Source: Tachypleus tridentatus
Taxonomy: Eukaryota; Arthropoda; Merostomata; Xiphosura; Limulidae
Length of the DNA: 64,000 bases
Assembly (NCBI RefSeq): GCF_004210375.1
Contig: NC_134830.1
Span: 66,380,326-66,444,325, forward strand
Direction of reading: 5' to 3'
This document shows positions 5,564-56,804 of the stretch, piece after piece. A program made the position numbers and the translations under genes. The notes below the pieces were generated by a model. It was not told the DNA's origin, did not search any database, and saw only the letters and a list, made by a program, of their open reading frames with translations. How positions within the stretch are numbered: position 1 is the stretch's first letter; each line of letters opens with the position of its first letter.

Positions 5564-5834
5564 TTGTTTGTTTATTTATGAATTTCGCACAAAGCTACAC
5601 AAGGGCTATCTGCACTAGCCGTTCCTAATTTTGCAATGTAAGATTAGAAGGAAGGCAGCTTGTCATTCCTACGCTCCGCCAACTCATAGCTACTGTTTTA
5701 CCAACGAATAATAGGATTGACCACCACATAATAACTCCCTCACAGCTAAAAGAGCGAACATGTTTAGTGTGACGGGAATTGAAACTCGCAACCCTTAGGT
5801 GACCATTCGAGCACTATAACCACCTGGCCATGCC
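5564..5834 (-). mobile_element. SINE family A
   Basis: Complement of the full family A structure. On the plus strand it starts with the TGTTTGTTTATTT tail, then AAGCTACACAAGGGCTATCT, the core, and the tRNA-like head ending ACCACCTGGCCATGCC. It is moderately diverged. Confidence 0.85.
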
Positions 5835-6070: not shown

Positions 6071-7575
6071 CACTAAGTAACAAAATTTTTACTTTTTCTT
6101 GTTCCAGAGCAGAAAGTGTTATTTCCCAATTGCTATAGCTAAAGTAAATGGAAAAGACATATTTTTTCTGTTCAAACTTTGCTTTTCTGACCTGAGTAAA
6201 GAAATTTTCAAATTTACCCATTTTACAGAATATTCCAGGTTGATTCAATGCTGAGAAGCTGATAGAGAATTTTTTCAAACTGATAAGAATTTTCAAGAAC
6301 TTTCTAGAATGTTGTAGAACTTCACTCGTCAAGATAGGCTCTGCTTCTGCCACAATGTATCCGGTCTGTGCTAGGCAACTGGAATTGCCTGTAACCCGAA
6401 TGAATGGCGCCCCTTCATTGAAAGTTCATCCAGAAGCCTCAGAGCTGTGCTACTCCATAAAGGGAATAAGTATTCGTCTCTTCCCCTGGCTCATTCGGTG
6501 CACCTCAAAGAGGAATACAACAGCGTCAAGATCTTGCTAGAAACCTTGAAGTATAACGCGTATGGCTGGGAGGTTATGGGAGACTTTAAAATGGTGATAT
6601 TCCTGATGGGTCTCCAAGGAAGCTTTACCAAGTTTTTCTGTTATCTTTGCCTTTGGGCCAGCAGGGACACCGCAGCGCACTATAATAGAAAGCACTGGCC
6701 ACAACGGACCGAGTTTTCTGTAGGGAGGCGCAATGTCAAGTGTGAGCCACTTGTGAACCTCCAGAAGGTGTTGTTCCTACCATTGCCCATAAAATTGGGT
6801 CTTATGATACAATTTGTCATTGCTCTTGATAAGGAGTCTGTAGCCTTCAAGTACCTTCGAGATTTCTATCCTAAACTGTCTGAGGCAAAGGTCAAAGCTG
6901 GTGTCTTCATTGGACCACAAATTAGAAGATCCTGGAGTGTACAGAATTCCCAAAGAAGCTCAGTAGGAAGGAAAAAAAGCTTGGGGCAGCTTTGTCGCAG
7001 TGGTTCGGGGCTTCATGGGCAACCACAAAGCCGAAAATTATATGGAACTGGTTGAGGCTCTGGTGAAGAACTACGACAAAATGGGCTGCAGGATGTCCCT
7101 GAAAGTCCATATTCTTTACGCTCATCTTGATAAATTTAAGGAGAACATGGGAGCATACTCAGAGGAGCAAGGCGAGCGCTTCCACCAAGATATACTGGAC
7201 TTTGAACGCCGCTACCAAGGAGCGTATAACGAAAGCATGATGGGGGACTATATTTGGGGGATGATACGTGAAAGTGATTTACATTACAGTCGCAAATATC
7301 GAAAAACTACTCACTTCTAAACATTTTTGTGTAACTTTAGTATAAATACATGTAAATCTTGATTCATATGTTGTTTTATTCAGACCTTACGTGAATGAAA
7401 ATGTGCAAATTTGCCCATTTTTTACATAGAAAATAGGATAATTTCTAAATTTCATTATACAGATCACAAAAGCAAAGTTTGAAGGGAATAATGGCCATTT
7501 TCTGTACTTTTACACCATAAGCAATTAAGAAATAACACATGCTATCCAGGAACAAAATTTGTGTTACCAAGAGTG
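6071..7575 (+). mobile_element. DNA transposon with long inverted repeats and CACTA-like ends, copy 1
   Basis: The left end starts CACTAAGTAACAAAATTTTT and the right end, read on the minus strand, starts CACTCTTGGTAACACAAATT. Inverted similarity continues for more than 100 bp through GTTATTTC, AATTGCT and TTCAAACTTTGCTTTT. A decayed protein-coding region lies between the ends. The relative at 42125-43524 has the same termini, which supports the boundaries. No clean target-site duplication is visible. The ends resemble CACTA-type elements, but the superfamily is not established. Confidence 0.75.
6447..7320 (+). pseudogene. Broken ORF of the CACTA-ended element, C-terminal part
   Basis: A coding trace runs in one frame from about 6438 (AVLLHKGNKYSSLPLAHSVH) to about 6930. 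It contains GDFKMVIFLMGLQG, then a cysteine pair in CYLCLW and HWPQRTEFSVGRRNVK. A frame change of the reading near 6930-7000 leads to GFMGNHKAENYMELVEAL, CRMSLKVHILYAHLDKF and GERFHQDILDFERRYQG, ending at the stop at 7318-7320. I recognise this as a protein repeated in many arthropod genomes and usually left uncharacterised. Its position inside long inverted repeats makes it a candidate transposase or accessory protein of this element. The N-terminal part, present in the relative at 42125-43524, is missing here. Confidence 0.7.
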
Positions 7576-7640
7576 ATTAGATTTTTGCGCTTCTTGTACT
7601 CATTCATTAGCTTTATTTTTGTGTTTTATTTTATAGAGAA

Positions 7641-12770: not shown

Positions 12771-12904
12771 GCCCCCCAGTGGCTCAGCGGTATGTCTGCG
12801 GATTTACAACGCTAAAATCCGGGTTTCGATACCCGTGATGGGCAGAGCACAGATAGCCCATTGTTTAACTTTGTGCTTAATTCAAAACAACAAAACAACA
12901 ACGA
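12771..12904 (+). mobile_element. SINE family B, complete copy
   Basis: The head GCCCCCCAGTGGCTCAGCGG is followed by TATGTCTGCGGATTTACAAC and the B-box region GGGTTTCGATACCCGTGATG. The tail AGAGCACAGATAGCCCATTG leads to CTTTGTGCTTAATTC and a CAAAACAACAA end. GCACA (12847-12851) can pair with TGTGC (12872-12876). This is the reference copy for family B in the window. Confidence 0.9.
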
Positions 12905-13545: not shown

Positions 13546-14170
13546 CTCCACTACCTTAGAAAGGACGTTGAATTGTTGGAAAGGATTCGGAGGAGGGATA
13601 CTAGAGTGATACATGAGATAAAAATGTTGTCAAGTGAAAATTTGTTATGATTTGCGAAATTACTTCCTTTCAAAAAAAGCGGAATTAGAGATGATTTGAT
13701 TGATATGTTTAAAAATGTTGAGAAAATTTAAAATGTTTATGCATCATTCTTCTTTCATACTTAACAGTGAGAATGGTAATACAAGGAGACACACATTTAT
13801 GAATTGTGGCATGATAGATATGATTGATTTTTTTGCTAAGACAGCTTTACTTTCCAGTAGGATGGTCGACCTTTGAAATGAGATACCTTCAGCTGCGGAT
13901 AATTTAAAGTTCAAGGAAAGGCTTAATAAATATTTGATTATGTGTGTTGTGTTTGTGCTTTCTTATAGCAAAGTCACATCGGGCTATCTGCTGAGCCCAC
14001 TGAAGGAAATCGAACCTCTGATTTTAGCGTTGTCAATCCGTAGACTTATCGCTGTACTAGTGGGAGGCCATATTTGATTATAAGGGTTGGCTTTGAATGT
14101 TCTTATCTTTATTGTAGATTTTATTATAATGAACAGGACGGCCTAGATGAAACAAGAAGTCCGTCGTAGT
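13546..14170 (+). mobile_element. CR1/L2-like LINE fragment, C-terminal end, split by a SINE
   Basis: Near 13845-13940 one frame reads TALLSSRMVDL, a stop, then NEIPSAADNLKFKERLNKYL. This matches the usual C-terminal pattern of CR1/L2-type reverse transcriptase ORFs (FFSNRVV.LWN.LP...FK.RLDKYL). Earlier traces (13546-13845) are weaker. A SINE interrupts the reading at 13942-14070, and it resumes with NEQDGLDETRSPS, similar to the acidic ends of such ORFs. Only the 3' part is present, as expected of 5'-truncated LINE copies. Confidence 0.65.
13942..14070 (-). mobile_element. SINE family C with an 11-bp target-site duplication
   Basis: Complement of family C: GTGCTTTCTTATAGCAAAGT, GGGCTATCTGCTGAGCCCAC and GAAATCGAACCTCTGA, ending CTGTACTAGTGGGAGGCCA. 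TATTTGATTAT occurs exactly at 13931-13941 and 14071-14081, fixing both boundaries and showing insertion into the older LINE fragment. Confidence 0.9.
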
Positions 14171-17317: not shown

Positions 17318-18999
17318 AGACAACATACTTATACAGTTTAGAATTTTCAAGAACTTATGTGGCTTCCTAGAAATATACCTGGGGTGTTTTTGTAGCAATA
17401 GAACATATGATGTCAAAAAGCCTTACTTTTCCAAATATCCAACTATAATTGTAAAACTTGTGCTACAAAACAGATCTTGTTGTTCTGTGCATTGGCTGAT
17501 ATGAGTTTCGTATCTCTGTTGCAATATTTTGTATTGAAAATGTCCATGTTGGATGATTATATTAGATAATAACATTAACTTAAGTATAGTTGAATGGAAA
17601 ACATATTAATGTTAAAGATGTACTGGCATAATATGTCAAATGCATCTAATGAAATGAGATATTTGTGTGTTTTTAGAAAAAAAGAGAAAACAGGCTTACA
17701 GAGTTTAAATCAGTTTTAAACAAAATTTGTTTCTAGGGTTAAGTACAATAAAAAACATATTTTCTAAGGAGATTGTAATGAGATAAATATTCTTTAATTG
17801 TATAGAAAGGTACACCAATAAAGTAAGTTTATAAGGAAAATAGGAAAAACATTTTGATATGTGATGCTAAAACAGTTTATGTATATAAATATCTTAATGT
17901 AAATAACTGTGGAAATAGGAGTCACAGAGAAAGTAATAAAAACTAGATAGTGAATTTATTAATGGTGCAAAACATTATCACAGAAAAGCACATATATTGC
18001 ACAAGTCACAAATTTTTGTATATTAGCAGTTACCTTTTTACAGATTAATACATCTTGTTTTCATGCTACTATACAATTTACTGATGTGTTACTTTGGGAT
18101 ATTGTAGAAATATCCTGCATTACTCTTCATAATTCAGACATGTTTGTAGGTCACCTTTTGACCTTCTCAGTTTTTACAAGTCAGTCCAGTCCATACACAC
18201 AAAAGAATGTTCTATTTGGATTTTGTGTAAGTCAAGCCATAATTGTAAGTGTTCTATCACCTTTTTTACTTTCAAGGTATTGTTTGTTTATGTTTGCAGT
18301 ATGCTTGGGAGCATTGTATTGTTGGAAGATTAATCAGTTCCTGATGAGTCATGTTCTTAAGAGAATGATGTAATGGATTACATCTCTGTACCTATCAGCA
18401 TTTAAGGTGCCATCAGTCACGTGTAGATTACAGAACCATTGGCAAAGTTGCTAGTTGCTGGATTTAAATTCAGACTGATTCCACACCCATGCTTCATTGT
18501 AGATGTTGACATTGAAAGAAGGTTCTGTTCTTTCAGGTTACCTCCTCTGGGATCTAAACATCCACCCACATGTTTGCTGTGTGTGACGACCCGTGAAGGG
18601 GAGGAGAGGATCCTGGTGGTTGAGTGGTCCAACCCTAACACACCACTGTGGCCTTGAATTTCTGTAGACAGGCTGCCTTTGGGTGGCCCCCTTGGGTCAA
18701 TTGGTCTACTTTGGGCAAGAGCCAACCAAGTACCAGTGTTGGAAGTTCTTAATGGGTGTTGTGGACATTGTGTCTGATGCTGGTGTTTGGGTATAGTGCT
18801 CATGAAACCCTGGTGTTGCTGCAGTGTCCTTGCTTGACATTGTAGTGAGTCCCCTTGTAGGGCTCCATGGTGGGTGGGGTCAGTGAGCACCAAAATTTTC
18901 TTTTTTCCTGTGGATCCTCCTACAAAAAAATAAAAAAAATAGTGAAAAAACAGTCAATAGGTAAACGACTGCGTCTTGAAGACTAATCAGCAATCTACA

Positions 19000-20058
19000 A
19001 TGTCTGTACCACCAACTGTACCTCATTTACTCATCCTACATTCTCTCTCAGAAAAACTTTCAGAGCAAATGTCCCCCTTTTTTATTCAGAAGGGACTGGA
19101 GGGATTTGCTGGCTCTCCAAAGTCAGTAAAGAAGCTTCTTTCTGGAGACATATTGGTTGAAACATCCACATCCCAACACAGTGAACTCCTCTTGAATTCA
19201 AAGGCTATTGGGGATGTACCTATTGAGGTTACCCTTCATGCTATCTTGAATTCATCATGAGGAGTTATTGTTGAGAGGGATTTGAAGGACGTCCCTGAGT
19301 CAGAGATTCTTTCTGATTTCTCCACTCAAGGAGTTTCTGCAGTGAGGCGCATCTCCACTCGTGAAGATGGAGCTACACTGCCGAAAATATCCTCGTTTTG
19401 ACATTTACATCACCACATGCACCTGCCACCATCAAGGCAGTTTATCTAAATTGCAGGGTATGGCCATATATTTCAAACCTTCTCCGATGTTTCCAGTGTC
19501 AGAGGTTTGACCACTCAAAGACGTCATGTTGTGGTTCCCTGACATGCTTGTTGTGGTGGCAAAGACCGTGATACCTATGAGTGTGAAACAGACCCACATT
19601 GTGTCAACTGCAATGCTTCTCACTCTTCCCACTTTCGTTCTTGCCCTAAATGGTTGGAGGAAAAAGAGGTGCAGCATTTGAAAACAACTCATAACATTAC
19701 TGATCCTGAGGCTGGGAAATTGCTGTTCACCACTTTATCTCGGACATATGCTGCTGCACTTCATTCCACCACTGGAATGGGAGTGCAGACAGATCTCGCT
19801 GTGTCTCCAAGAGAATTGTTCTGAAAACAAATGAAAAGCCTTTTGACCTCCATGGTTAAAGTTGATGAATCAACTTCTACATCCATCTCTGTTCCTCCCA
19901 TACATTCCAACAAACCCCATGATCCACATCCTCTGGTTCCAGGAACAGGCATTTCTTCAGATACATCTTTTTCTCCTACCTCAAGTTGGAAAACAATCAT
20001 TTGTTCACATCCTCAGTCACTGGAATCCCCTTCCAACAACAAAGACCTGCCCGTTTGA
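19000..20058 (+). pseudogene. LINE ORF1 (gag-like, zinc knuckles), broken
   Basis: Starting at ATG 19000, the frame reads PHLLILHSLSEKL and KLLSGDILVETSTSQHSELL, and stops at 19258. Coding similarity continues in shifted frames: IVERDLKDVPESEILSDF and AVRRISTREDG, then a cysteine-rich region at about 19490-19660 with CFQCQRFDHSKTSC and HCVNCNASHSSHFRSCPKW. These are zinc-knuckle patterns of LINE ORF1 proteins, which bind the element RNA. A Ser/Thr/Pro-rich C-terminal part follows. At least two frame changes separate the pieces. Confidence 0.7.
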
Positions 20059-20174
20059 CCCAGGGCAGGATCCATGGAGGTCGATAGACCTCCCCCAAAT
20101 AAGGACAGTAAGGAAAAAAGATGTGGCCATAAACAGAAGGGTTTTCCAGCCTATTCACCTACACATCATTAAAA

Positions 20175-23100
20175 ATGGCCACCTTGATACAATGGAATTA
20201 TCGAGGTTTACATTCTAATCTGGATGTTATCAAAACACTGATTGCTTCCTACCATCCTGTATGTCTTTCCTTACAAGAAACATTTCTAAAACCTGCCGAT
20301 ACAGTCACCTTTCAGCAGTTTTCTCTGTACAGAAATGACAGGCTGTGTGATGGATGAGTACATGAAGGGGTGGCACTATTGGTTGATCAGCATGTGCCCA
20401 CCCTGTATTTGTCACTCAACACACCCTTGGAAGCCGTAGTCATCCGTGTTTCCTTGAGTCATACCATCACTGTTTGTTCTCTCTACCTGTCACCTGGAGA
20501 GACATATGATCAATCAGACCTTGATGCACTCATTTGAACAGTTGCCATCTGCCTTTCTAATCCTGGGGGACTTTAATGGACATCATCCCCTCTGGAGAAG
20601 TGCTGTTATTGATAGGAGGGGTCGCTCTGTAGAGCGTATGCTCTCTGGTCACAACCTTTCTCTTTTCAATACTGGTTCTTCCACTTACTTTCATGCACCT
20701 AGTCAGTCCTTTACCGCTATTGATCTCTCAGTTTGCTTCCCTTCATTATTCTCCCATTTTTCATGGAGGGTTGACAGTAATCCACGAGGCAGTGATCATT
20801 TTCCTACACTTTTCAGAGAGACTGGCCATGGTCGATGCCACCCTACTTGCATGCCTCGATGGAAGCTGGATCAGGCAGACTGGTATACTTTCACTGCTCT
20901 CGCAGAATTTGATCCTGCCATTGTCTATTGGTGACTGTGTGGCAGCAGTAACTGACTGTACTATACAAGCAGCTACTCAATGTATTCCTAAAACCTCGAC
21001 ACATTTTCCACTATATCCTCGTCCGTGGTGGAATCTTGCCTGCCACATGGCACGGAAGGCTCAAAAATTGGCCTGGGATACTTTCCGTAAATATTCCACA
21101 CTTTCAAACTGCATCGCTTTCCAGCAGGCCTGTGCACATGCTTGGTGGGTAAGATGTCAAAGTCAGAGGGAATCTTGAATTAAGTTCACAACTGGCATAT
21201 CTTCTACCACCAGTTCCAAGGTCGTATGGGACAGGATTCGAAAGGTCAGTGGGCACTACAATCCTGTCTCCCTCTTGATCTTTCTCTGATGGCCAAGAAG
21301 TAGCTGATTTTCGGAGCATTGCTGATACTCTAGGTGAAAGCTTTTGCCGGGTATCTAGCACTTTTGCTTGTTCCTCCACCTTCATGGCCATCATGGCAGA
21401 GCATTCACCTCTTTCCTTTCGAACTGACTATCTCTTTGGCTATAATTGTTCTTTACACTGGTGGAACTGAAACTGGCCCTTCATAGGTCTGACTGTATAT
21501 GTGTTGGACCAGATGATGTACACTATGAAATGCTGCATCATCTATCTCCTGCTTCTCTTGATATTCTTCTAATTGTTTTTAACCAGATCTGTCAGGATAA
21601 TTTTTGCTAATGCTTGGTGCCAGGTTATTATCTTACCTTTCTCTAAGCCTGGGAAGATCCCAAGATTCCTTCAAACTACTGTTCAATTGCTTTGATGAGC
21701 TGTCTCTGTAAGACCTTAGAGAGGATGGTTAATGCTTGTCTTGTTTGGTTCCTCGAATGAAACATCCTCCTCTTGCCTACTCAGTGTGGGTTTCGATGAC
21801 AGCACTCCACCATGGACCACCTAATTGGACTTGAAACATCAATCAGAGAAGCTTTTCTCAAACAACAACATCTTGTATTAATATTCTTTGACATTGAGAA
21901 GGCTTATGACACAACATGGAGGTATGGCATTTTGCGAGACCTGCATATATATGGGTTACGTGGCCATTTACCCATTTTTATTAAAAAATTTTTAACGGGC
22001 AGGAGATTCCAAATTTGTGTGGGTTCAACACTTTCCTGTTCTTTTATACAAAAAATTTGGGTCCCTCAGGGCTGTGTTTTGAGTGTCACACTTTTCAGCG
22101 TAAAGATTAATGCCATCACTGAACAACTCCCTCTCACTGTTGCAAACGGGCTCTATGTCGACGACTTTCACATTTCGGACCAGTCGTCAAACATGAGATA
22201 TATTGAACGGCAACTACAAACTGCCCTCGATTGTGTTCTGAAGTGGACAACGGCATTAATTTCTCTCTCTCTAAAACTGTTTGCATGCACTTTTGCTGCC
22301 AACGGGGTATTCACACTGATCCTGAACTCCGTATCAGTGAAGTTTTGCTGCCTGTGGTTCCTGAGACCAAGTTCTTAGGGCTTATTTTTCACTGTAAGCT
22401 GACCTTTATACCACACTTAAAGCAACTATGGGTCAAATGCACAAGAGCACTGAACATCCTCCGTGTCCTCTCTACCACCAGTTGGGGAGTGGATCATTGT
22501 TTTCTGTTAAAGATATAATGTACTCTTATTCGATCGAAACTCAACTATGGATCACTGGTTTATGTCTCTGCCAGACCCTCGGCCTTAAAGATGCTGGACC
22601 CCATTCATCATCAAGGACTTCGACTTTGCACTGGGGCTTTCCGCACCTCCCCAGTTCAGAGCTAAAACATAGAATCTCATGAACCTTCTCTGCACCTTTG
22701 TTGTTTACAACTGTCTTTACTATATTCTTCGAAACTTCGTTCCTTACCAAAGCATCCCACCTGGGGTTGTGTTTTCCTTTCTTGTCTGTTCTGAAAAAGT
22801 GTGGCCCACCGATCTGTCATTGCTCCTTTTGGCCTTTGCGCCCAGGTGCAATTGGATGAATTGGGTCTGTCCTTGGATTACACTGCAGAATCCACTGGTC
22901 AGCCCATCCCACCATGGCTTATTGCAGTCCCCAAATGTGACCTTTCTTTAAGTCATCTGAGAAAGGCAGATACTCCCGATTGGAAGTACCATCTTTTATT
23001 TACTGAACATCTTTCGAACAATCTTTTCATTCCAATTTATATGGATGGTTTCAAATCAGGTGACTCTGTGGGCTCTGCCATGGTTTGTTGCAGTTTAGTG

Positions 23101-23859
23101 GTTGAGCATAAAATCCCCTCTACAGCTTCTGTGTTCACTGCTGAACTGTACGCCATTTCTTTTACCCTGGATCCTATTGAAGCTAAGCAGTACTCCAATT
23201 GCACTATTTATACTGACTCACTTAGTTCTCTACTGGCCCTGGAATCGCTTCACGTTAGTTCACACCCTGTTCTCGCTGGTATTCAAAACTGACTGGCCCA
23301 TTTCTTATTAACATCTACTTCTATCCAGTTTTTCTGGATACCAGGCCACGTTGGTATTTGCAGGAACCAGCTTGCAGACAAGGCAGCTAAATCTATCTGC
23401 TCTGGCACTATCACCACTGTGCCTATTCCATACATGGACTATGGTCCTGTATTCACGGCTCAGATCCATGCCAGCTGGCAGTCAACTTGGAGTGAGCAAC
23501 GCGACAACAAGCTCTTCCAAATAAAACCCTATATTGGGCTTTGGCCATCTAGCTTCCGTAAGGATCAGGAGGAAGTTGTTCTGACTAGACTACACATTGG
23601 TCACTGTTTTTTAACTTATTGTTTTCTTTCATTTGGAACTGTTGCACTCATGTGTAGTTTGTGTAACACTCAGATCACTGTAATTCACATTTTACTTTCT
23701 TGCCATCGTTACAACTCTCAACAACAGCACTATTTTAAACAAGGTCTGTCCCAAGGTTTTTCTATAACATTAGACAGTGTTATTGGTGACAGTGACACTG
23801 TCCACCTTGATAAAGTTTTTAGTTTTTTAATGGCCATTAATGTTTTTAATGTCATTTAA
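20175..23859 (+). pseudogene. LINE ORF2: endonuclease, reverse transcriptase, RNase H, broken
   Basis: ATG 20175 starts MATLIQWNYRGLHSN. Endonuclease motifs are SLQETFL (about 20265), LGDFNGHHPLW (about 20565) and GSDHFPT (about 20790). Reverse transcriptase motifs are FDIEKAYDTTW (about 21888), PQGCVLS and YVDDF (22154-22168, catalytic pair intact). The RNase H region has YMDGFKSGDSVGSA (about 23038), FTAELYAI, IYTDSLSSLLAL and IPGHVGICRNQLADKAAK (about 23338). A zinc-finger-like CSLCNTQITVIHILLSCH lies at about 23654. Stops at 20355 and 20932 and later frame changes destroy the ORF. In a live element it would nick DNA and copy the RNA at the target. Confidence 0.85.
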
Positions 23860-23970
23860 GTGTTTTATATTTATTCATTAAACATTTTTATTGTGGTTCT
23901 CTTTTAAGAGTCACAATCTTTCTAGTTTGATTTGAAATTGGAAAATGGCCATGACATTAAATAACTCAAT

Positions 23971-24780
23971 ACCAGGACTGGAAAGGCCGACTTCAGGTGA
24001 ATAACGCTGCTGTTTGGACTGTCCGTTTGAACTACCCATTTATCGTCCTGGCGAGTTATTATGACAATTTTTTGCTGCATGTCTTTTAACACTTTTATTT
24101 CTTTACTTTTTGATACTGGCCATAATGACACATAACCTGGAACCAGGACTGGAAAGGCCAACTTCAGGTGACTGACAGTGGTTCTTGCACTTACCTGTTA
24201 GTCTTCCTGGCTGGTTATGATAATTACCATTTTGCTACAGAAAGTCCTTTACAACTTCTATTACTGTAGTTTCTCTCTTGACATTGTAAACTGGATGTCA
24301 ACATTGGTTTTATGCCATTTATGGTTTTAATTGCTGTTTTGTTTTACCTTCATTTCCTTTTATGAATTTTACTACATTTACTTTTTTTTACCTTTTTACT
24401 GGATGTTTGGCAAGTTATTATTACAATTTTGCTACATGTCTTTTAAAACTTTTATTACTTTATCTTTTGATAATGGCCATAATGACACATAACCTGGAAC
24501 CAGGACTGGAAAGGCCAACTTCAGGTGACTGATGGTGGTTTTTGTACTTACTTGTTAGTCTTCCTGGTGGGTTATGATAATTACCATTATGCTACAGAAA
24601 GTCTTTTACAACTTCTCTTACTCTGGTTTCTCTCTTAACATTGTAGACTAGATGTCAACATTGGTTTTATGCAATTTATGTTTTTCAATGCTGTTTTGTT
24701 TTACCTTCATTTCCTTTTATGAATTTTACAACATTTATTTTTTTTACCTTTTTAACGGAAGTTTGGCACAGATAGCCTAG
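23971..24780 (+). repeat. Internal repeats in the LINE 3' UTR
   Basis: The block ACCAGGACTGGAAAGGCC plus RACTTCAGGTGA starts at 23971, 24142 and 24499, at spacings of 171 and 357 bp. The 357-bp unit, which includes GGCCATAATGACACATAACC and GATGTCAACATTGGTTTTATG, is nearly identical in its last two copies. Confidence 0.85.
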
Positions 24781-24830
24781 CTGCTTTGTGCCATAAAACA
24801 CTAAGTCAACCAACCAACCAATCCTCTCTG
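24765..24830 (+). promoter_or_regulatory. LINE 3' terminal hairpin and tail, shared with SINEs
   Basis: GGCACA (24765-24770) can pair with TGTGCC (24787-24792) around GATAGCCTAGCTGCTT. ATAAAACACTAAGTC and CAACCAACCAACCAA follow. The loop sequence and position match the tails of SINE families A and B. A role as the reverse-transcriptase recognition site is inferred from known LINE/SINE partnerships. Confidence 0.6.
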
Positions 24831-27580: not shown

Positions 27581-27815
27581 ATAATCTGAAGGTCATAGGT
27601 TTGAATCCCTATCACACCAAACATGCTCACCCTTTCAGCCGTTGGGACATTATAATGTGATGGTCAATCCCATTATTAGTTGGTAAAAGTGTAAACCAAA
27701 AGTTGGCTGTGAGTGGTGATGACTAGCTGCCTTCCCTCTAGTCTTACACTACTAAATTAGGGGCAGCTAGTGCAGATAGCCTTTGTGCAGCTTTGTGCAA
27801 AATTCAAAAACAAAC
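27581..27815 (+). mobile_element. SINE family A, 5'-truncated
   Basis: It begins inside the anticodon arm (ATAATCTGAAGGTCATAGG), keeps the B-box (GTTTGAATCCC), and has the full core and the tail GCAGCTTTGTGCAAAATTC then AAAAACAAACAA. Confidence 0.85.
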
Positions 27816-40872: not shown

Positions 40873-41442
40873 TTTGTTTGTTTGATTTTAATTTCGCGCA
40901 AAGCTACTCGAGGGCTATCTGCGCTAGCCGTCGCTAATTTAGCAGTGTAAGACTAAAGGTTTGTTTGTTTTGTTTTGGAATTTCGCTCAAAGCTACTCGA
41001 GAGCTATCTGTGCTAGCCGTCCCTAATTTAGCAGTGTAAGACTAGAGGGAAGGCAGCTAGTCATCACCACCCACCGCCAACTCTTGAGCTACTCTTTTAC
41101 CAACGAATAGTGGGATTGACCGTCACATTATACGCCCCCACGGCTTGGAGGACGAGCATGTTTAGCGCGACGCGGGCGCGAACCCGCGACCCTCGGATTA
41201 CGAGTCGCTCGCCTTACGCGCTTGGCCATGCCAGGCGTAAGACTAAAGGGAAGGAAGCTAGTCATCACTACCCACTGCCAACTCTTGGGCTACTCTTTTT
41301 ACCAACGAATAGTGGGATTGACCGTCACCTTATAACGTCCCCACGGCTGAAAGGGTGAACATGTTTGGTGCGATTAGGATTCGAACCCGCGACCCTCAGA
41401 TGACGAGTCGAACGCCTTAACCCACCTGGCCATGCCAGGCCG
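40873..41442 (-). mobile_element. SINE family A, outer copy interrupted by another
   Basis: The tail and part of the core lie at 40873-40958, the rest of the core and the tRNA-like head at 41237-41442. Read across the insertion they form one complete element. The outer copy keeps the paired stem bases GCGCA (40896-40900) and TGCGC (40920-40924). Confidence 0.92.
40959..41236 (-). mobile_element. SINE family A inserted into a SINE, 12-bp target duplication
   Basis: A complete 278-bp element from the GTTTGTTTGTTTTGTTTTGG tail to the GCCATGCCAGGC head. The target sequence GTAAGACTAAAG is exact at 40947-40958 and 41237-41248. The head keeps GAACCCGCGACCC (B-box, complement) and anticodon-loop TTACGAG. 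Confidence 0.95.
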
Positions 41443-42124
41443 GATTTCGAATAATTGCATGGGATGACTTCTGAACACTCAATTAAAGGATTCAAATCTG
41501 ATGGAATATGGCTCCCACAATTATCTAGAACGTCTCTGTATGTAGTGGTTGTTTTTGAAAATGGCAATTATTGCTTTAAAAGGCTCATAGGTTTATTGCA
41601 TATTCTAAACGTATATGTTTTATTTAAAAAGACCAATTTTTTTACTGGTAAAATTGTTTTCGCTCTTATTAGGGGTTATGTTTTAGTCTAGGAACATATC
41701 TGCCCATTGCTATGCATTATAAGGAGAGAATTTAGTTACACAGAAATTATAAATGCTGATTATATTCTCAAGCACATTTCCATTGTAATTTCGAGTTGCA
41801 ACTTAACATTTACATCTCGAACTAATACGATTAAATACTCAACAGCTACAGTAAATAATCATGAACTGCATCAGCTACCTACTCACCTCTGTTTCAGGTT
41901 TAACTTTATGCCGATAATTAAAATTAAAATCAAATCCAATAAACTTTAAATCGGGACATGATCAAGAAACATGTTGACCTTTTTTTGTTTCTAAGAACAA
42001 ATAACATGCCGCATGACAACATAGCTCTTTTTTAATAAAGTACCGCACTTAATGCAATACAAGAAAATAATTCTTTAACTACACTTTAAAAGGCAGCATA
42101 ATACATTCTTAAATGTAATTATAA
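41443..42124. other. Unassigned non-coding sequence
   Basis: Open frames here (41455-41691, 41707-41949) have no recognisable content. Confidence 0.5.
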
Positions 42125-43524
42125 CACTATGTAAAACAAATTTTGTTCCTGGAAAGTATATGTTATTTCTTAATTGCTTATGTTGTAAAAGTACAGAAAA
42201 TGGCCATTATTCCCTTCAAACTTTGCTTTTGTGACCTGGACAATGAAATTTAGAAATTAACCTATTTTCTATGTAACAATGGGCAAATTTGTACATTTTC
42301 ATTTACATTAGGTCTGAAAAAACAACATATGAATCAAGATTTGCATGCATTTATACTAAAATTACACAAAAATGTTTAGAAGTGAGTAGTTTTTCGATAT
42401 TTGCGACTGTAATGTAAATCACTATTACGTAACAGCCCCCAAATATAGTCTCGGCATTCGACTTTCTTAGACCAAGATCTCTGATCATGTCATTAAGGTC
42501 TCTTTGGTTGGGGTAGTATAGGTTTCTCTTACCAGCTGCACCTCCGAAATTGTAATTTGGATCTTCAACGTCTACCTCCTCTTCTGATTTACTGCTCTCT
42601 TCTGAGGATGGCTTCTTTCTTTCTGATGATAGCAGATGCATTCTTGTCAGACCGACGTTTTGAAGGGTCCACTATGCCGAAGTAACAATTGCTTGAGTGG
42701 TCAGTGGGTTCATACTAAATTCTTGGAACAGCGAACTTCATTACTCTCTTTTTCCCCTCTGTACCATCCTGCAAAAAAGCAAAATAAAATTTTTGTTATG
42801 AAGAATAAATTTATTTCATCCACAACTAATGTGAAAGAGGTTCATGCAAAATATTTTATATGTGATATTTTTTCTATACTATTGGAAATTTAAAAAAGTA
42901 AATGAAAAGATATTTAAATTTTAAAAGGTCGAAAATTTGTATAATATAAAATCTTATTATTTAAACAAGCAAAAATTGTCCGTCTTATCTTCTAGAGTTT
43001 TTTAGCAGTGCTCTCAGAAAAAATGAGGAGCCTAGGGTTTGTCTTGATCCCTGATAGGCATGCCGAAATATGCCTTATAGGCTTCGTACATTTTAGCAGA
43101 TGCTATCACACAGTACTTTTTCGCTCTTGTCTTGATAAATTGGCCACATTCATAGCAGAATGCGTCTGGAGAATGCTTGCAGCTTCTTGATGCTATCTCT
43201 GATAAAATCAGATAGATCTATGGTTCACTTAGGCAGCTAGAACTAAACTAAAGTAGTGAGTGGTGAGCCTCTGTATATATATATTACTATGGAAAGTTCT
43301 AGAAAATTCTCGTAAGTTCGAGAAAATTTTCTATCAGCTACTCAGCATTGAATCTACTTGGAATGTTCTGGAAAATGGGTAAATTTGGAAATTTCATTAC
43401 CCAGGTTACAAAAGCAAAGTTTGAAGATTACAATAGGTCTTTTCCATTTACTTTAGGCATAAGTAATTGGGAAATGACACTTTCTTCCCAGGAACAAGAA
43501 AAAGTAAAAATTTGTAACATAGTG
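42125..43524 (-). mobile_element. DNA transposon with CACTATG ends, copy 2
   Basis: The left end CACTATGTAAAACAAATTTT and the right end, on the minus strand CACTATGTTACAAATTTTTA, are inverted repeats extending over 100 bp through TTCAAACTTTGCTTTTGTAA. Sequences inside the left end (TTAGAAGTGAGTAGTTTTTC) match the complement of the 3' part of copy 1. The coding strand is minus. Confidence 0.82.
42440..43195 (-). pseudogene. Broken ORF of the CACTATG element, N-terminal part
   Basis: Minus strand, starting near 43195: CKHSPDAFCYECGQFIKTRA, then KYCVIASAKMYEAYKAYFGM and PIRDQDKP, with stops soon after. A Cys-x2-Cys pair in FCYECG suggests an N-terminal zinc-binding module. Weaker text follows to 42660. 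Then 42641 down to 42440 reads LLSSERKKPSSEESSKSEEE, DVEDPNYNFGGAAGKRNLYY and PNQRDLNDMIRDLGLRKSNA. The large C-terminal region present in the relative at 6071-7575 is deleted; only the non-coding 3' end remains. Function is unknown. Confidence 0.7.
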
Positions 43525-52756: not shown

Positions 52757-55700
52757 ATCAATTGTTTTGACCCAACTGGATTCTCCCAACAGAATAGATG
52801 CTGCATTGTGAAGTTTTTCATTGGATTTGCTCTTGGTTTGGGACACTGAGTACCAGTGTTGGGCATTCTCAACAGATATTGTGGACATTGTGTCAGATGC
52901 TGTTGTGTGGTTATGGTGCTCACAAAGCCCTGGTATTGCTACAGTGTCACTGTTTTGCTTTTTTGTTTATCACCTCTAACGACTCTATGGTGGTTGGGAT
53001 CAGTGGACACAGAATCTTCTTTTCTTGTAAATCTTCCAATCCTTGAAAAAATAGCCAAAACAGCTAATAGCTAAGCAATCATATTTAAGACTGAACATCA
53101 GCCTTCATCCCATTGTGCAACTGTACCTTTATCATATCACATTATTTGTTAGTCAAACCATTAGTGCAGTTCTTTTCCCCATTTTTAATAATGGAGATTA
53201 CTGGTTCTCCAAAGTCATAGAAGTTATGTTTGTGGAAACATCTACATCAAAACTAAGTACACTTCTCTATTTTGAAGGCCACTAGGAATATACCCTATGT
53301 GACTTTGAATCTCTCTTGAGGAATGATTGTTGAGAGGGATTTACAAAACATCCCCAAGTCCGAGATTCTTGCCAATTTCTGCTGTGCAACATATGTCAGT
53401 TTGTAAAGAGGATTATAGTGCCTACCAATGTTCTTGTATTGACATTTACATCAAGTCTGCCTGTCTTTCTCAAAGCAGATCATTTGCTGTAAAATACGGC
53501 TATGCATTTCTAACCTCTGTTTCCAATGTCAGTGGTTTAGACATTTAAAGGCATCTTGCTGCATTTTTTTTGACATGTGCTCGTTGTGACAAAGACTGAC
53601 ACCAGTGTCAACTGGACCCTTAGGGTAACAAATGTTGTTCACAGTACATAAACATTATACCTCTTTTTTTTTTTTTTTTAAACTCCACCTGCTTAGGGCA
53701 AGATCAAAGTAAGAGGTGGTGTAAACTATCACAATTGATGCAGAGAGGGTTCTGTTATCCTGAAACTTGAAACTTGACCTCTCTTCTATTTTATACTTAT
53801 TCTATTGATCTCTATTCTACTGTCATCAGAGACAATATTAAGAAGGCCAGTGGAAAGCAATAGAATGTTTAAAATAGAAAAGAGGATAACAAATTTCAAG
53901 CCTTGGGGTAACAAATGTTGTTCACAGTATGTAAACATTGTACCTCTTTTTTTAACTCCATCCACTTTAGGGCAAGATCAAAGTAAGAGGATGTGTAAAC
54001 CACCACAGTTGATGCTTTTTATTCTCTTTCCACTTTCTTCTTCAGTTGCTATGAAGTTGCTGGTGTGCAAAGCATTGTTGATACTCTCAGGGAGTGCTTT
54101 TCTTATCTCTCCAGCACTTTTGATTTTTCCCCTGCATTCTTGGACATCAAGTCTCAGAGCAATCAGATATTTCCTTTTGGGCTGATCATCTCTGTGACTG
54201 TAATAATTTTTTTACCCTGATGGAATTGAGCTTGCTCTTCATCAGGTGGGTCTGATGACATATACTATGAGGTGTTTGCTCTTGCTCTTCTTCTGGTTAT
54301 TTTTAACCAGATGTGATAAAAGAACATTTTTTCTCATTTGGCACAAGTTTCTAAGCCTGAGAAGGATTCAATTGTTTTATTAACTGCCCGTGTAAAGTTT
54401 TGAAAAGGATAGTTAATGTTTGTTTTGTTTGGATCTTTGAACCCAAACAACCTCCTCTCACCCTTCCAGTGTGGTTTCCTTCAACAGCACTCCATCATGG
54501 ACTGACTACCTGATTCAACTTGAAACCACACTCAAGGAAACCTTTCTCAAGAGAACGTCTTGTATCTGTCCCTCTCTTTGGTGTTGAGAAGGGTTATGAC
54601 ACAACATGGAGGTTTGGCATTTTGCAGGGTTACCATTGATATGGGTTTCATGGTCATTTGTCCATTTTTAACTTGGCAGATGATTTTAAGTCTGTGTGCA
54701 TTTGACCATTTCCTTTTTATTCACACAGGAACTCTCCAAGTTCCTTAGGGCTGTATTTCATGTGTTACTATTTTCAGTGTCAAGATCAGTGCTCTTGTTA
54801 ATCAACTTCCTTCTACTGTTGCAATTGGTCTCTGTGTCAATGACTTCCACACCTCTTGTCAGTCATCAAATATAAGGTTAACTGAGTGGCAGCTTCAGAC
54901 TGCTCTCACTTGTTTGTTGAAGTGGACCACAACAAAAAATGTTAACTTTTTTTTCTAAAACCATTTGCATGCATTTTTGCCACCAGTGGGTTTATATCCC
55001 AACCACAAACTCTGTCTTGGTGATGTTCTTCTTCCCTTAGTTCCTGAAGAAGTGTTCTTGAGGATCATATCTAACTGTAAGCTTACTTTCATTTTCCATA
55101 TCAACCAGCTTTGTGTCAAGTGTACAAGGGCACTTAACATCCTTTGTCTCCTCTCTTCCACCTCTTGGGGAACAGTTCAGTGCTCTCTGTTGAAGACATA
55201 TTTGGTCTTCATATATTCCAAGCTAGACTGTGGGTCTCTGTTTTATGGTTCTGCCAGGCCCTTTAACTTGATGATGCTTGACCCCGTCCATCATCTGGAG
55301 CTTTTGTTTAGTACACTGAGTTCTACAAACCTTCTCTTCAGCTCCAATGCTTGCATTTTTCTTTGCAACATACTACCTAGCTTTGATCTTAACAACAGCA
55401 TCCTACCTGGGGTTGTCTTCCTTCCTCAATGGGATATACTCTTTTAGAATAGAAGGTCTGCCATTTCTCCTTTTAGCCTTCATGTCCAGGTGCAGCTGGC
55501 TGAATTGAACTGTCATTGGATGACAATAACTGGCTTATTTACCCTCCCTACCTGTGACCTTTCTTTGAGGCATCTGAGAAAGGTGGATACTCCGGAGTGG
55601 AAGTACTGTTTTCACTTTGGCGAACATCTTTTGAAAAATTACTTGTTTTTATGAGTAGCTTAAAATTAGGTGACTTGGTGGACTCCATCAAGGTTTGTTG

Positions 55701-56557
55701 TGGCTAGATGGTTACTTGCAAGACTCCCTCTACAGTTTTCATGTTCACTGCTAAGCAGTATGCTATTTCTCTTGCCCTGGATCACATAAAGTTATGCAGT
55801 ACATTTATTGTATTATTCACACCAACTTTATGAGCTTTCTACTAGCCTTTGAATTGCTGAATGTTAATTTTCATTTTTTCTCATTGATATTTACAAATGA
55901 TTCTTCCAGTTTTCATTGTCTTCTGTTTCAGTACAGTTTTTCTAGTTACCTTGGCAATATTGGTATTCAAGGGATTAAGTTTGCTGTCACTGAAACTAAG
56001 TCCATTTGCTCTGGTGCTTTCTCAGCCTTACCTTTCCTGTATGTGGACTGCTGTCTTGCATTCAAGGCTCAATTTCATGCCAGTTGATTTGAAATGAGAA
56101 AACTCAACAAGCTATTCCAGATTAATTCTACTGTTGCTCTTTAGCTATCTTGTTTCTGCAAGGATTGGAAGGAGGAAGTTGTTTTGGCTTGAGTATGCAT
56201 TGGTTACAATTTTTAACTTGTTCTCTTTTGTCTGGGTATAATTAAAAAATGTGTGGCTTTTGTGACATTCAAGTCAGAATAGCCTATGTTTTACTGTCAT
56301 GTATGATGGCACTATTTTAGATGCAGTTGGATGGTATCATTGGCAATGGTGACACTGTCCAAATTGATTGTGTTTCTAGCTTTTTTGTAGACCTTAGATC
56401 TTTTTAATTTGATTTTGGTTGTTAGCTAATGTTTGAGCTCTGTCTAGTTTTTGACTTGCTTTATTTTTCTATTTTCTATTATTTTACTTTGAAGAATTTT
56501 ACGAGTTGTTTGGAAACAGCATAGTTGCTTTATATAAAAAAAATGTCAACCAATCAT
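52757..56557 (+). mobile_element. I-group LINE, second and more decayed copy
   Basis: It starts inside the 5' region (TACCAGTGTTGGGCATTCTC, ATTGTGGACATTGTGTC), follows ORF1 to about 53600, then resumes at about 54045 in the region before RT. RT text includes EKGYDTTWRFGIL (about 54590). RNase H and 3' parts follow, ending GCATAGTTGCTTTATA near 56540. Compared with the copy at 18410-24830, the end of ORF1 and the whole endonuclease are missing. Stops are frequent. Confidence 0.8.
53624..54015. repeat. Direct repeats around an inverted repeat, replacing the LINE endonuclease
   Basis: Direct repeats of about 110 bp lie at 53624-53740 and 53907-54015 (GGTAACAAATGTTGTTCACAG to CACARTTGATG). Between them, 53754-53793 and 53870-53912 are inverted repeats of about 40 bp (GACCTCTCTTCTATTTTA against its complement). 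Confidence 0.75.
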
Positions 56558-56804
56558 CTCTGAGAGACACTGGAAACATACAATTAGCTAATGATCTAGC
56601 AACTTTTATCATTGCCTTTAGTTATAATTTTGCCTTTCATTTTTAGTTACCATGCATTTGTTTATTTTTGCTTTATTGTGTTAATCACCATTTTTATTGA
56701 ACAACTTTCGTAACACATCAATTTTCAACAGGCATGAAGCCTCAAGAAAAATCATTGCTTTCATATGGAAGCTGGTAATCTGGTAGTCACACTTCCTTTT
56801 GTAG
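56558..56804. other. Sequence between the LINE and a candidate exon
   Basis: It includes a pyrimidine-rich stretch ending CACTTCCTTTTGTAG at 56804, the acceptor used for the exon below. Otherwise it is non-coding. Confidence 0.4.

Follow-up and report, generated by a model that had tools for sequence, protein, structure and literature searches.

The LINE copy and the SINE families of the window

The window, i.e. the whole analysed stretch of 64,000 nucleotides of Tachypleus tridentatus DNA, harbors on its forward strand a LINE copy broken by stops (18729-24825; the 5' boundary is approximate, the element being read to ca. 18.7-24.8 kb), which comprises endonuclease, reverse transcriptase and RNase H regions and a 3' UTR with an internal duplication. 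The domains follow one another on the + strand, within 20458-23859, in the order PF14529 (endonuclease, 20458-20934, E 1.8e-15), PF00078 (reverse transcriptase, 21800-22378, E 1.5e-13) and PF00075 (RNase H, residues 81-200 of the frame at 22795-23859, E 1.7e-7), the last being matched with the frame joined and its stops written as X, since the single pieces gave no match at 0.001. The combination of an APE-type endonuclease, a reverse transcriptase and an RNase H in one element fits a member of the I superfamily. The 3' UTR (23938-24726) shows two 300-base copies 357 apart (92% alike) and an additional, older third part of 83 bases, and several genome copies of the LINE end display a second match immediately upstream of the first.

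The element ends with a hairpin at 24765-24792 (+), read from the letters and from the fold and spelled GGCACA-GATAGCC-TAGCTGCTT-TGTGCC, in which the outer stem GGCACA/TGTGCC encloses an internal loop GAT/T, an inner stem AGC/GCT and the apical loop CTAGCT. It is followed by a tail (24793-24825, +, end approximate) closing with (CAAC)n repeats, and similar tails are found in genome copies. The genome searched comprises 2.17 Gb in 205 contigs, from which 29 loci besides the window copy were fetched with the last 321 bases of the LINE (92-94% identical). Coagulin, a protein of horseshoe crabs, has 19 matches above its family cut-off in this genome, four of which, on C11 near 9.02 Mb, span the profile in the manner of exons, vs none in 14 control genomes, so that a horseshoe-crab host is almost certain. 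The hairpin, first read directly in 16 + strand loci among them, is present in 23 of the 29 (L010-L038) when both strands are tallied, and the 3' arm reads TGTGCC in 22. An older relative, ca. 66% identical and with the decayed tail GTTTGGAAACAGCATAGTTGCTTTATAT, lies at 52849-56680 (+, ends approximate); all nine of its genome relatives (L089-L097) carry the hairpin core with 0-3 mismatches.

Three SINE families, A, B and C, are also represented. On the complementary strand, an older SINE A has a hairpin of G-C type, GCGCA/TGCGC, at 40896-40924 (read from the letters), and a younger SINE A (40960-41236, complement; hairpin GCACA...TGAGC) sits in its tail half; in this nested arrangement (40875-41250 complement; locus L039) the older copy is split at CCTTTAGTCTTAC, which is duplicated over 13 nt. 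Two decayed hairpins of SINE A type, GTGCA...TGTGC, occur at 5587-5615 (complement) and 27770-27798 (+). SINE B is found at 12771-12900 (+), its head being tRNA-like by eye only, with the hairpin GCACA/TGTGC at 12847-12876 (+, read from the letters). The hairpin of SINE C, AGCA...TGCT, is located at 13967-13992 (complement), the inner stem being AGC/ACT in this copy. Direct reading confirms the positions originally given for the hairpins of the LINE, of SINE B and of the older SINE A. B-box-like text is visible by eye in the SINE heads, and ARAGORN, run on the window and on 20 loci, called no tRNA.

The families differ in abundance and in apparent age. The SINE A tail has the loop CTCGWGTA and then GCGAAATTC, and a 35-nt pattern of this tail has 60,809 exact genome matches, with 0 in the reversed control; the best matches to the window SINE A are 92-98% identical, mostly 96-97%, over ca. 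280 of 358 letters. Judged from sequence, SINE A is abundant and young. Among the SINE B matches listed, two are 95 and 93% identical and the remainder 81-90%, which suggests that SINE B is older. Eight of nine SINE B tails listed for L099-L108 have GCAC/GTGC, as do 13 of the 23 rows of the consensus set, some of which are not B; the copies nearest the window copy read AACTTT, with one inner pair lost.

A 3' hairpin common to the LINE and the SINEs

By family, the hairpin is spelled GGCGCA-GATAGCC-TAGYT-GCTT-TGYGCC in the LINE, GCRCA-GATAGCC-CTCGWGTA-GCTT-TGYGC in SINE A, AGCACA-GATAGCC-CATTGTGTA-GCTT-TGTGCT in SINE B and AGCA-GATAGCC-CGATGT-GGCTT-TGCT in SINE C (consensus built from 6 copies). 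Constant in all four are the strands AGATAGCC and GCTTTG, enclosed by a paired outer stem, and between these strands GAU can face U in an internal loop and AGC can pair with GCU as an inner helix. What varies by family is the apical loop (third block of each spelling) and the repeats after the hairpin (AACC, AAAC, AC). The loop text had been described as conserved, which holds for the two strands flanking the apical loop but not for the apical loop itself. SINE C, on the other hand, had been thought to share only part of the tail; its complete hairpin in the window, with an outer stem of its own (AGCA/TGCT), and the 6-copy consensus rule this out.

The sharing of the hairpin between LINE and SINEs, the core of the original prediction, is far beyond chance. 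The pattern GATAGCCN{10,30}CTTTG has 31,195 genome matches vs 1,588 for the reversed pattern, and the LINE-type core pattern AAAGCNNCTWGGCTATCT has 4,326 vs 0 reversed, as the SINE A tail pattern also has none reversed. Both the consensus alignment and the genome counts show SINEs that carry the 3' end of a LINE, as in LINE/SINE pairs of stringent type. The 3' element of UnaL2 is an Rfam family; Rfam covariance models gave no match in the window at gathering score, and around the hairpin just two matches (E 0.62 and 0.79), far under gathering scores.

Concerning the fold, the LINE consensus tails form the hairpin clearly better than shuffles (z ca. -2.9), and the hairpin-only LINE and SINE A forms, from which the upstream letters are absent (see below), fold into it as well. 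SINE consensus tails reach z values of -0.9 to -1.6 against shuffles. That of SINE B keeps the outer stem in its fold, and the best fold of the window SINE A copy contains the hairpin (z 0.1). The minimum-energy fold of the SINE A and C consensus tails is a different one, where (U)AGCC is taken up by an upstream arm (GGCUA, UGGGCU).

Seven source-level consensuses, two of which (LINE_old and SINEA_mid) are inferred states, were compared for covariation: pairing holds in 58 of the 63 cells, and among the six outer pairs three change on both sides. Out of 500 shuffles, 8 reach the observed percentage paired, 20 the two-sided pairs, 51 the two-sided cells, 227 the pair types and 21 the score. With the five remaining rows the same three two-sided pairs are obtained, and 27, 17, 28, 174 and 32 of 500 shuffles reach the observed values. 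Sliding the partner by 1-3 columns leaves 17-57% paired vs 91-92% in register. The inner helix is invariant across consensuses, hence uninformative in this respect. The consensuses thus point to moderate covariation of the outer stem between LINE and SINE families. The source-level changes behind it are few, and the most important of them falls in a CpG-rich palindrome; the copies being related by descent, a Fisher test on them is descriptive only.

Within SINE A, the 100 tails listed (all on contig C1) comprise 74 with GCAC/GTGC and 13 of the G-C type seen in the older window copy. Those with the loop CTCGAGTA (87 of the 100) divide into 73 GCAC/GTGC (A-U), 7 GCGC/GCGC (G-C), 5 GCGC/GTGC (G-U), 0 GCAC/GCGC (A-C) and 2 other, and those with the loop CTCGTGTA (13 of the 100) into 6 GCGC/GCGC and 7 with scattered CpG changes, including one GCAC/GTGC. 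Since the tail pattern requires two further intact CpGs nearby, the A-U state represents a subfamily change and not decay. These spellings fit a subfamily order from G-C through G-U to A-U, with which the window agrees, as the nested SINE A, whose 5' arm is of A type, interrupts the tail half of a G-C copy.

The 5' arm of the LINE is another matter. It reads GTGC in 15, GCGC in 12, GCAC in 8 and otherwise in 13 of 48 LINE-attached copies, by which spellings it is decaying neutrally, as expected for CpG decay of GGCGCA. The A-U pair of the window LINE was considered as a compensatory change and discarded, GGCACA being copy-specific and a CpG decay product of GGCGCA; the contrast between LINE and SINE stems within the window is therefore partly accidental. 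Support for stems that covary, as originally proposed, comes from the family consensuses and the SINE A subfamilies and not from the window LINE. In its 3' arm, young LINE tails have TGTGCC in 56 of 70 and TGCGCC or TGCACC in none of the 70; 20 tails of CRCCAAACC type have TGTGCC in 10, TGCACC in 3 and TGCGCC in 1, and 35 other tails have 7, 6 and 5, respectively. TGCGCC would be the older state, now replaced by a G-U pair.

Hairpin-only insertions and their target sites

Hairpins that lack the customary upstream letters were sought with a pattern that matches 1,289 genome places and 0 in the control, and many of the 20 places fetched consist of hairpin and tail abutting unrelated flank. A pattern fixing GGCRC matches 1,945 places, of which 16 of the first 100 (all on C1) begin at the stem base; the precise start of these 16 loci was dropped as a result, since the pattern itself fixes GGCRC. 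Because the start is built in, a second sample fixing just AGATAGCC...GCTTT was used (its first 65 places, on C1, overlapping the 100-place sample). Among these 65 LINE-type 3' ends, 48 continue upstream into 52 nt or more of LINE, 14 end at or within the stem arm (12 distinct, duplicates L247 and L265 being discounted and the near-duplicate pairs L122/L125, L233/L235 and L239/L240 retained), and 3 were set aside, namely L234 (ambiguous), L248 (SINE A) and L252 (LINE-like upstream absent from the references). The hairpin-only copies consist of the hairpin and its tail, ca. 50 nt. Between 12 and 51 nt the script placed only two ends (17 and 20 nt), one belonging to L248, which is a SINE A copy, and one to L071, a hairpin-only locus extended by a chance match, whose twin L265 is placed at 4. 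Extrapolation to the 4,326 places of the LINE-type core would give on the order of 800-900 hairpin-only copies, duplicates included.

It should be noted that the locus pairs L122/L125, L245/L247, L233/L235, L239/L240 and L071/L265 have near-identical flanks, often in opposite orientation; they may be uncollapsed haplotypes or large duplications, and insertion counts may be inflated.

SINE A has its own hairpin-only copies, which make up 14 of 22 fetched loci whose loops resemble those of SINE A but whose upstream letters are atypical, the remaining 8 being SINE A bodies with small changes; these loci derive from patterns fixing GYGC or a GGCRC-like spelling, so that their start is partly built in. 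Ten of them (L203, L204, L205, L206, L209, L210, L214, L215, L220 and L228) show SINE A hairpin and tail only, with duplications of 8-13 nt.

Among hairpin-only copies, target-site duplications of at least 7 nt flank 7 of 13 and 7 of 11 of LINE type and 10 of 14 of SINE A type (locus L234 being kept in this tally), vs 4.1% of 1,406 mismatched pairs, and duplications of at least 9 nt flank 27 of 37 full-length SINE A copies. Their lengths are 7-13 for LINE-type, 8-13 for SINE A hairpin-only and 9-13 for full-length SINE A insertions, with search minima of 7, 7 and 9, respectively. Target-site duplications and a 3' repeat tail, the marks of target-primed retrotransposition, are thus both found. 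Hairpin-only loci for the duplication, target and 3'-arm tallies were picked by reading. The hairpin-only insertions with their duplications amount to natural deletion evidence which suggests that the hairpin is the mobilised unit, hairpin and tail being enough for insertion.

A shared target preference, also anticipated in the original prediction, is weakly supported. The base before the duplication is T in 20 of 25 full-length copies of SINE A and in 12 of 17 LINE hairpin-only insertions but in 5 of 10 SINE A hairpin-only ones, vs 223 of 664 chance matches, and part of this bias is a method effect, since the tails end in A or C.

A fully paired GCGC 3' arm is more frequent in LINE-type hairpin-only copies (5 of 12) than in LINE-attached ones (1 of 48), as it is in the overlapping sample (8 of 16 vs 3 of 81); L162, L169 and L201 were excluded from the LINE-attached group in this comparison. 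Either stable stems favour the hairpin-only product or such copies have a separate source. As the excess looks like the mark of a separate source, the hairpin-only copies could form an independent lineage, a ca. 50-nt retroelement (hairpin and tail) propagated in trans by the LINE, which we regard as rather unlikely; it would be, to our knowledge, smaller than any SINE.

Probable recognition of the hairpin, alternatives and known systems

In our view the hairpin probably serves an I-superfamily LINE as its 3' recognition element, and SINEs A, B and C probably use the LINE machinery through it in trans. The LINE reverse transcriptase would bind the invariant internal loop GAU/U and the inner helix AGC/GCU, and the outer stem, paired but flexible in its sequence, would hold this core. 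Target-primed reverse transcription would then start in the short repeat tail directly after the hairpin, and SINEs carrying the same element would employ the machinery in trans. Hairpin and tail (ca. 50 nt) alone would suffice, LINE- and SINE A-type insertions beginning within the 5' arm or at its base, and the short products most likely derive from RNA 5'-degraded down to a protected hairpin, or from reverse transcription ending just past it. The observations behind this reading are the sharing of the hairpin, its pairing with moderate covariation between consensuses, and the hairpin-only insertions with duplications; recognition by the LINE protein is suggested by comparison with ZfL2 LINEs, whose stem has to be paired yet tolerates exchange (PMC4176376, accessible text). 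We further infer that the LINE lineage of the window serves all three SINEs.

The attribution of SINE mobilisation to this LINE or a relative, as originally proposed, gains from the shared hairpin and from hairpin-only insertions with duplications, but a single LINE for all families is unsupported because the post-hairpin tails differ. Each SINE family might instead depend on a different LINE subfamily, each with a distinct apical loop and tail repeat, the window LINE being a relative and not the mobiliser; this is a real possibility, though less probable than the shared lineage, and apical loops and tails do vary by family. Other loops do occur among LINE subfamilies (83 of the 100 matches listed are short-looped, mostly CTAGTA), and at one locus, L207, the tail is LINE-like but the loop, CGAT, resembles that of SINE C, with CTATAA after it. 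This type is, however, unique, a genome search that allowed 1 mismatch giving no other copy, and no LINE with a SINE A loop was found among 8 loci examined of the 17 long-loop places with LINE-like upstream (among 100 listed of 208), all 8 being SINE A or hairpin-only. Nor do we favour random 5' truncation, commonplace in LINEs, or remnants of decayed LINE copies as the source of the hairpin-only loci: ends accumulate at the stem (14 of 65), both script-placed ends at 12-51 nt are accounted for, and target-site duplications lie in the flanks adjoining the stem, which makes this explanation very improbable.

Concerning the stem itself, the covariation could merely reflect neutral loss of CpGs from a palindromic GCGC in copies no longer active, the pairing being unselected. 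LINE 5' arms do behave in this way, and so do the 7 of 13 SINE A tails of the second loop type with scattered decay, but the SINE A tails of the first loop type, with 73 A-U and 0 A-C states beside intact CpGs, the 8 of 9 SINE B tails listed with GCAC/GTGC, and changes outside CpG (C-G to A-U in SINE C; the sixth pair from G-C to A-U) render it improbable. Slightly less so is a pseudoknot as the active form of the SINEs, in which the upstream arm (GGCUA, UGGGC or UGGGCU) would pair with (U)AGCC(C) beside the outer stem. Both helices are possible in all three SINE consensuses; against this stand shuffled upstream sequences, which equal it in 13%, 7% and 4% of trials, the LINE, which offers just 3 bp, and the hairpin-only SINE A insertions, from which the upstream arm is absent.

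In 3' UTR recognition the LINE may be compared with SART1 and R2, which are site-specific elements. In both, the 3' UTR is required for retrotransposition (PMC4176376, accessible text). A further parallel is offered by UnaL2 (eel) and ZfL2-1/ZfL2-2 (zebrafish), stringent pairs of the L2/CR1 group whose LINE protein recognises a 3' stem-loop followed by a short repeat, the stem being needed structurally (PMC4176376, same text). Unlike these, where specificity resides in the apical loop, the horseshoe-crab families differ in their apical loops and keep internal loop and inner helix constant, and an RNase H domain is present in the LINE. Monocot L1-clade LINEs and the SINEs ZmSINE2/3 and those of sorghum likewise share a related 3' end of ca. 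50 nt, which forms a hairpin with compensatory stem changes, as already published (PMC3747384, accessible text); they differ in belonging to the L1 clade of plants, in having their constant bases in the loop and 3' flank, and hairpin-only insertions go unmentioned for them in that text. The Drosophila I element belongs to the I clade, as our LINE probably does, and likewise ends in a short tandem repeat, there TAA; the same text mentions no SINE partner for it (PMC3747384).

Stringent LINE/SINE pairing is hence known as a kind, and the hairpin-only products and the I-superfamily case appear new, the literature searched, which covers subscription journals thinly and often in part, giving no published account of horseshoe-crab SINE/LINE tails, of hairpin-only insertions or of such hairpin pairing in the I superfamily. 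The clades named in the accessible text of PMC4176376 for 3'-recognising LINEs are CR1, Tad1 and RTE, to which a chelicerate I-superfamily element would be added. The main question in such pairs is which features the LINE enzyme requires, and hairpin and tail, ca. 50 nt, offer a natural minimal substrate, the genome itself having run the deletion experiment with insertions from LINE and SINE A sources. Moreover, the history of the SINE A stem (G-C, G-U, A-U) beside a LINE 3' arm that seemingly changed likewise (TGCGCC or TGCACC among older tails, TGTGCC in young ones) makes the idea of a parasite following its host enzyme testable.

A final observation in the window concerns inverted repeat pairs at 7246-7577 and 42121-42450, of 132 and 170 nt, 95% and 89% complementary and ca. 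35 kb apart, which belong to some other repeat family.
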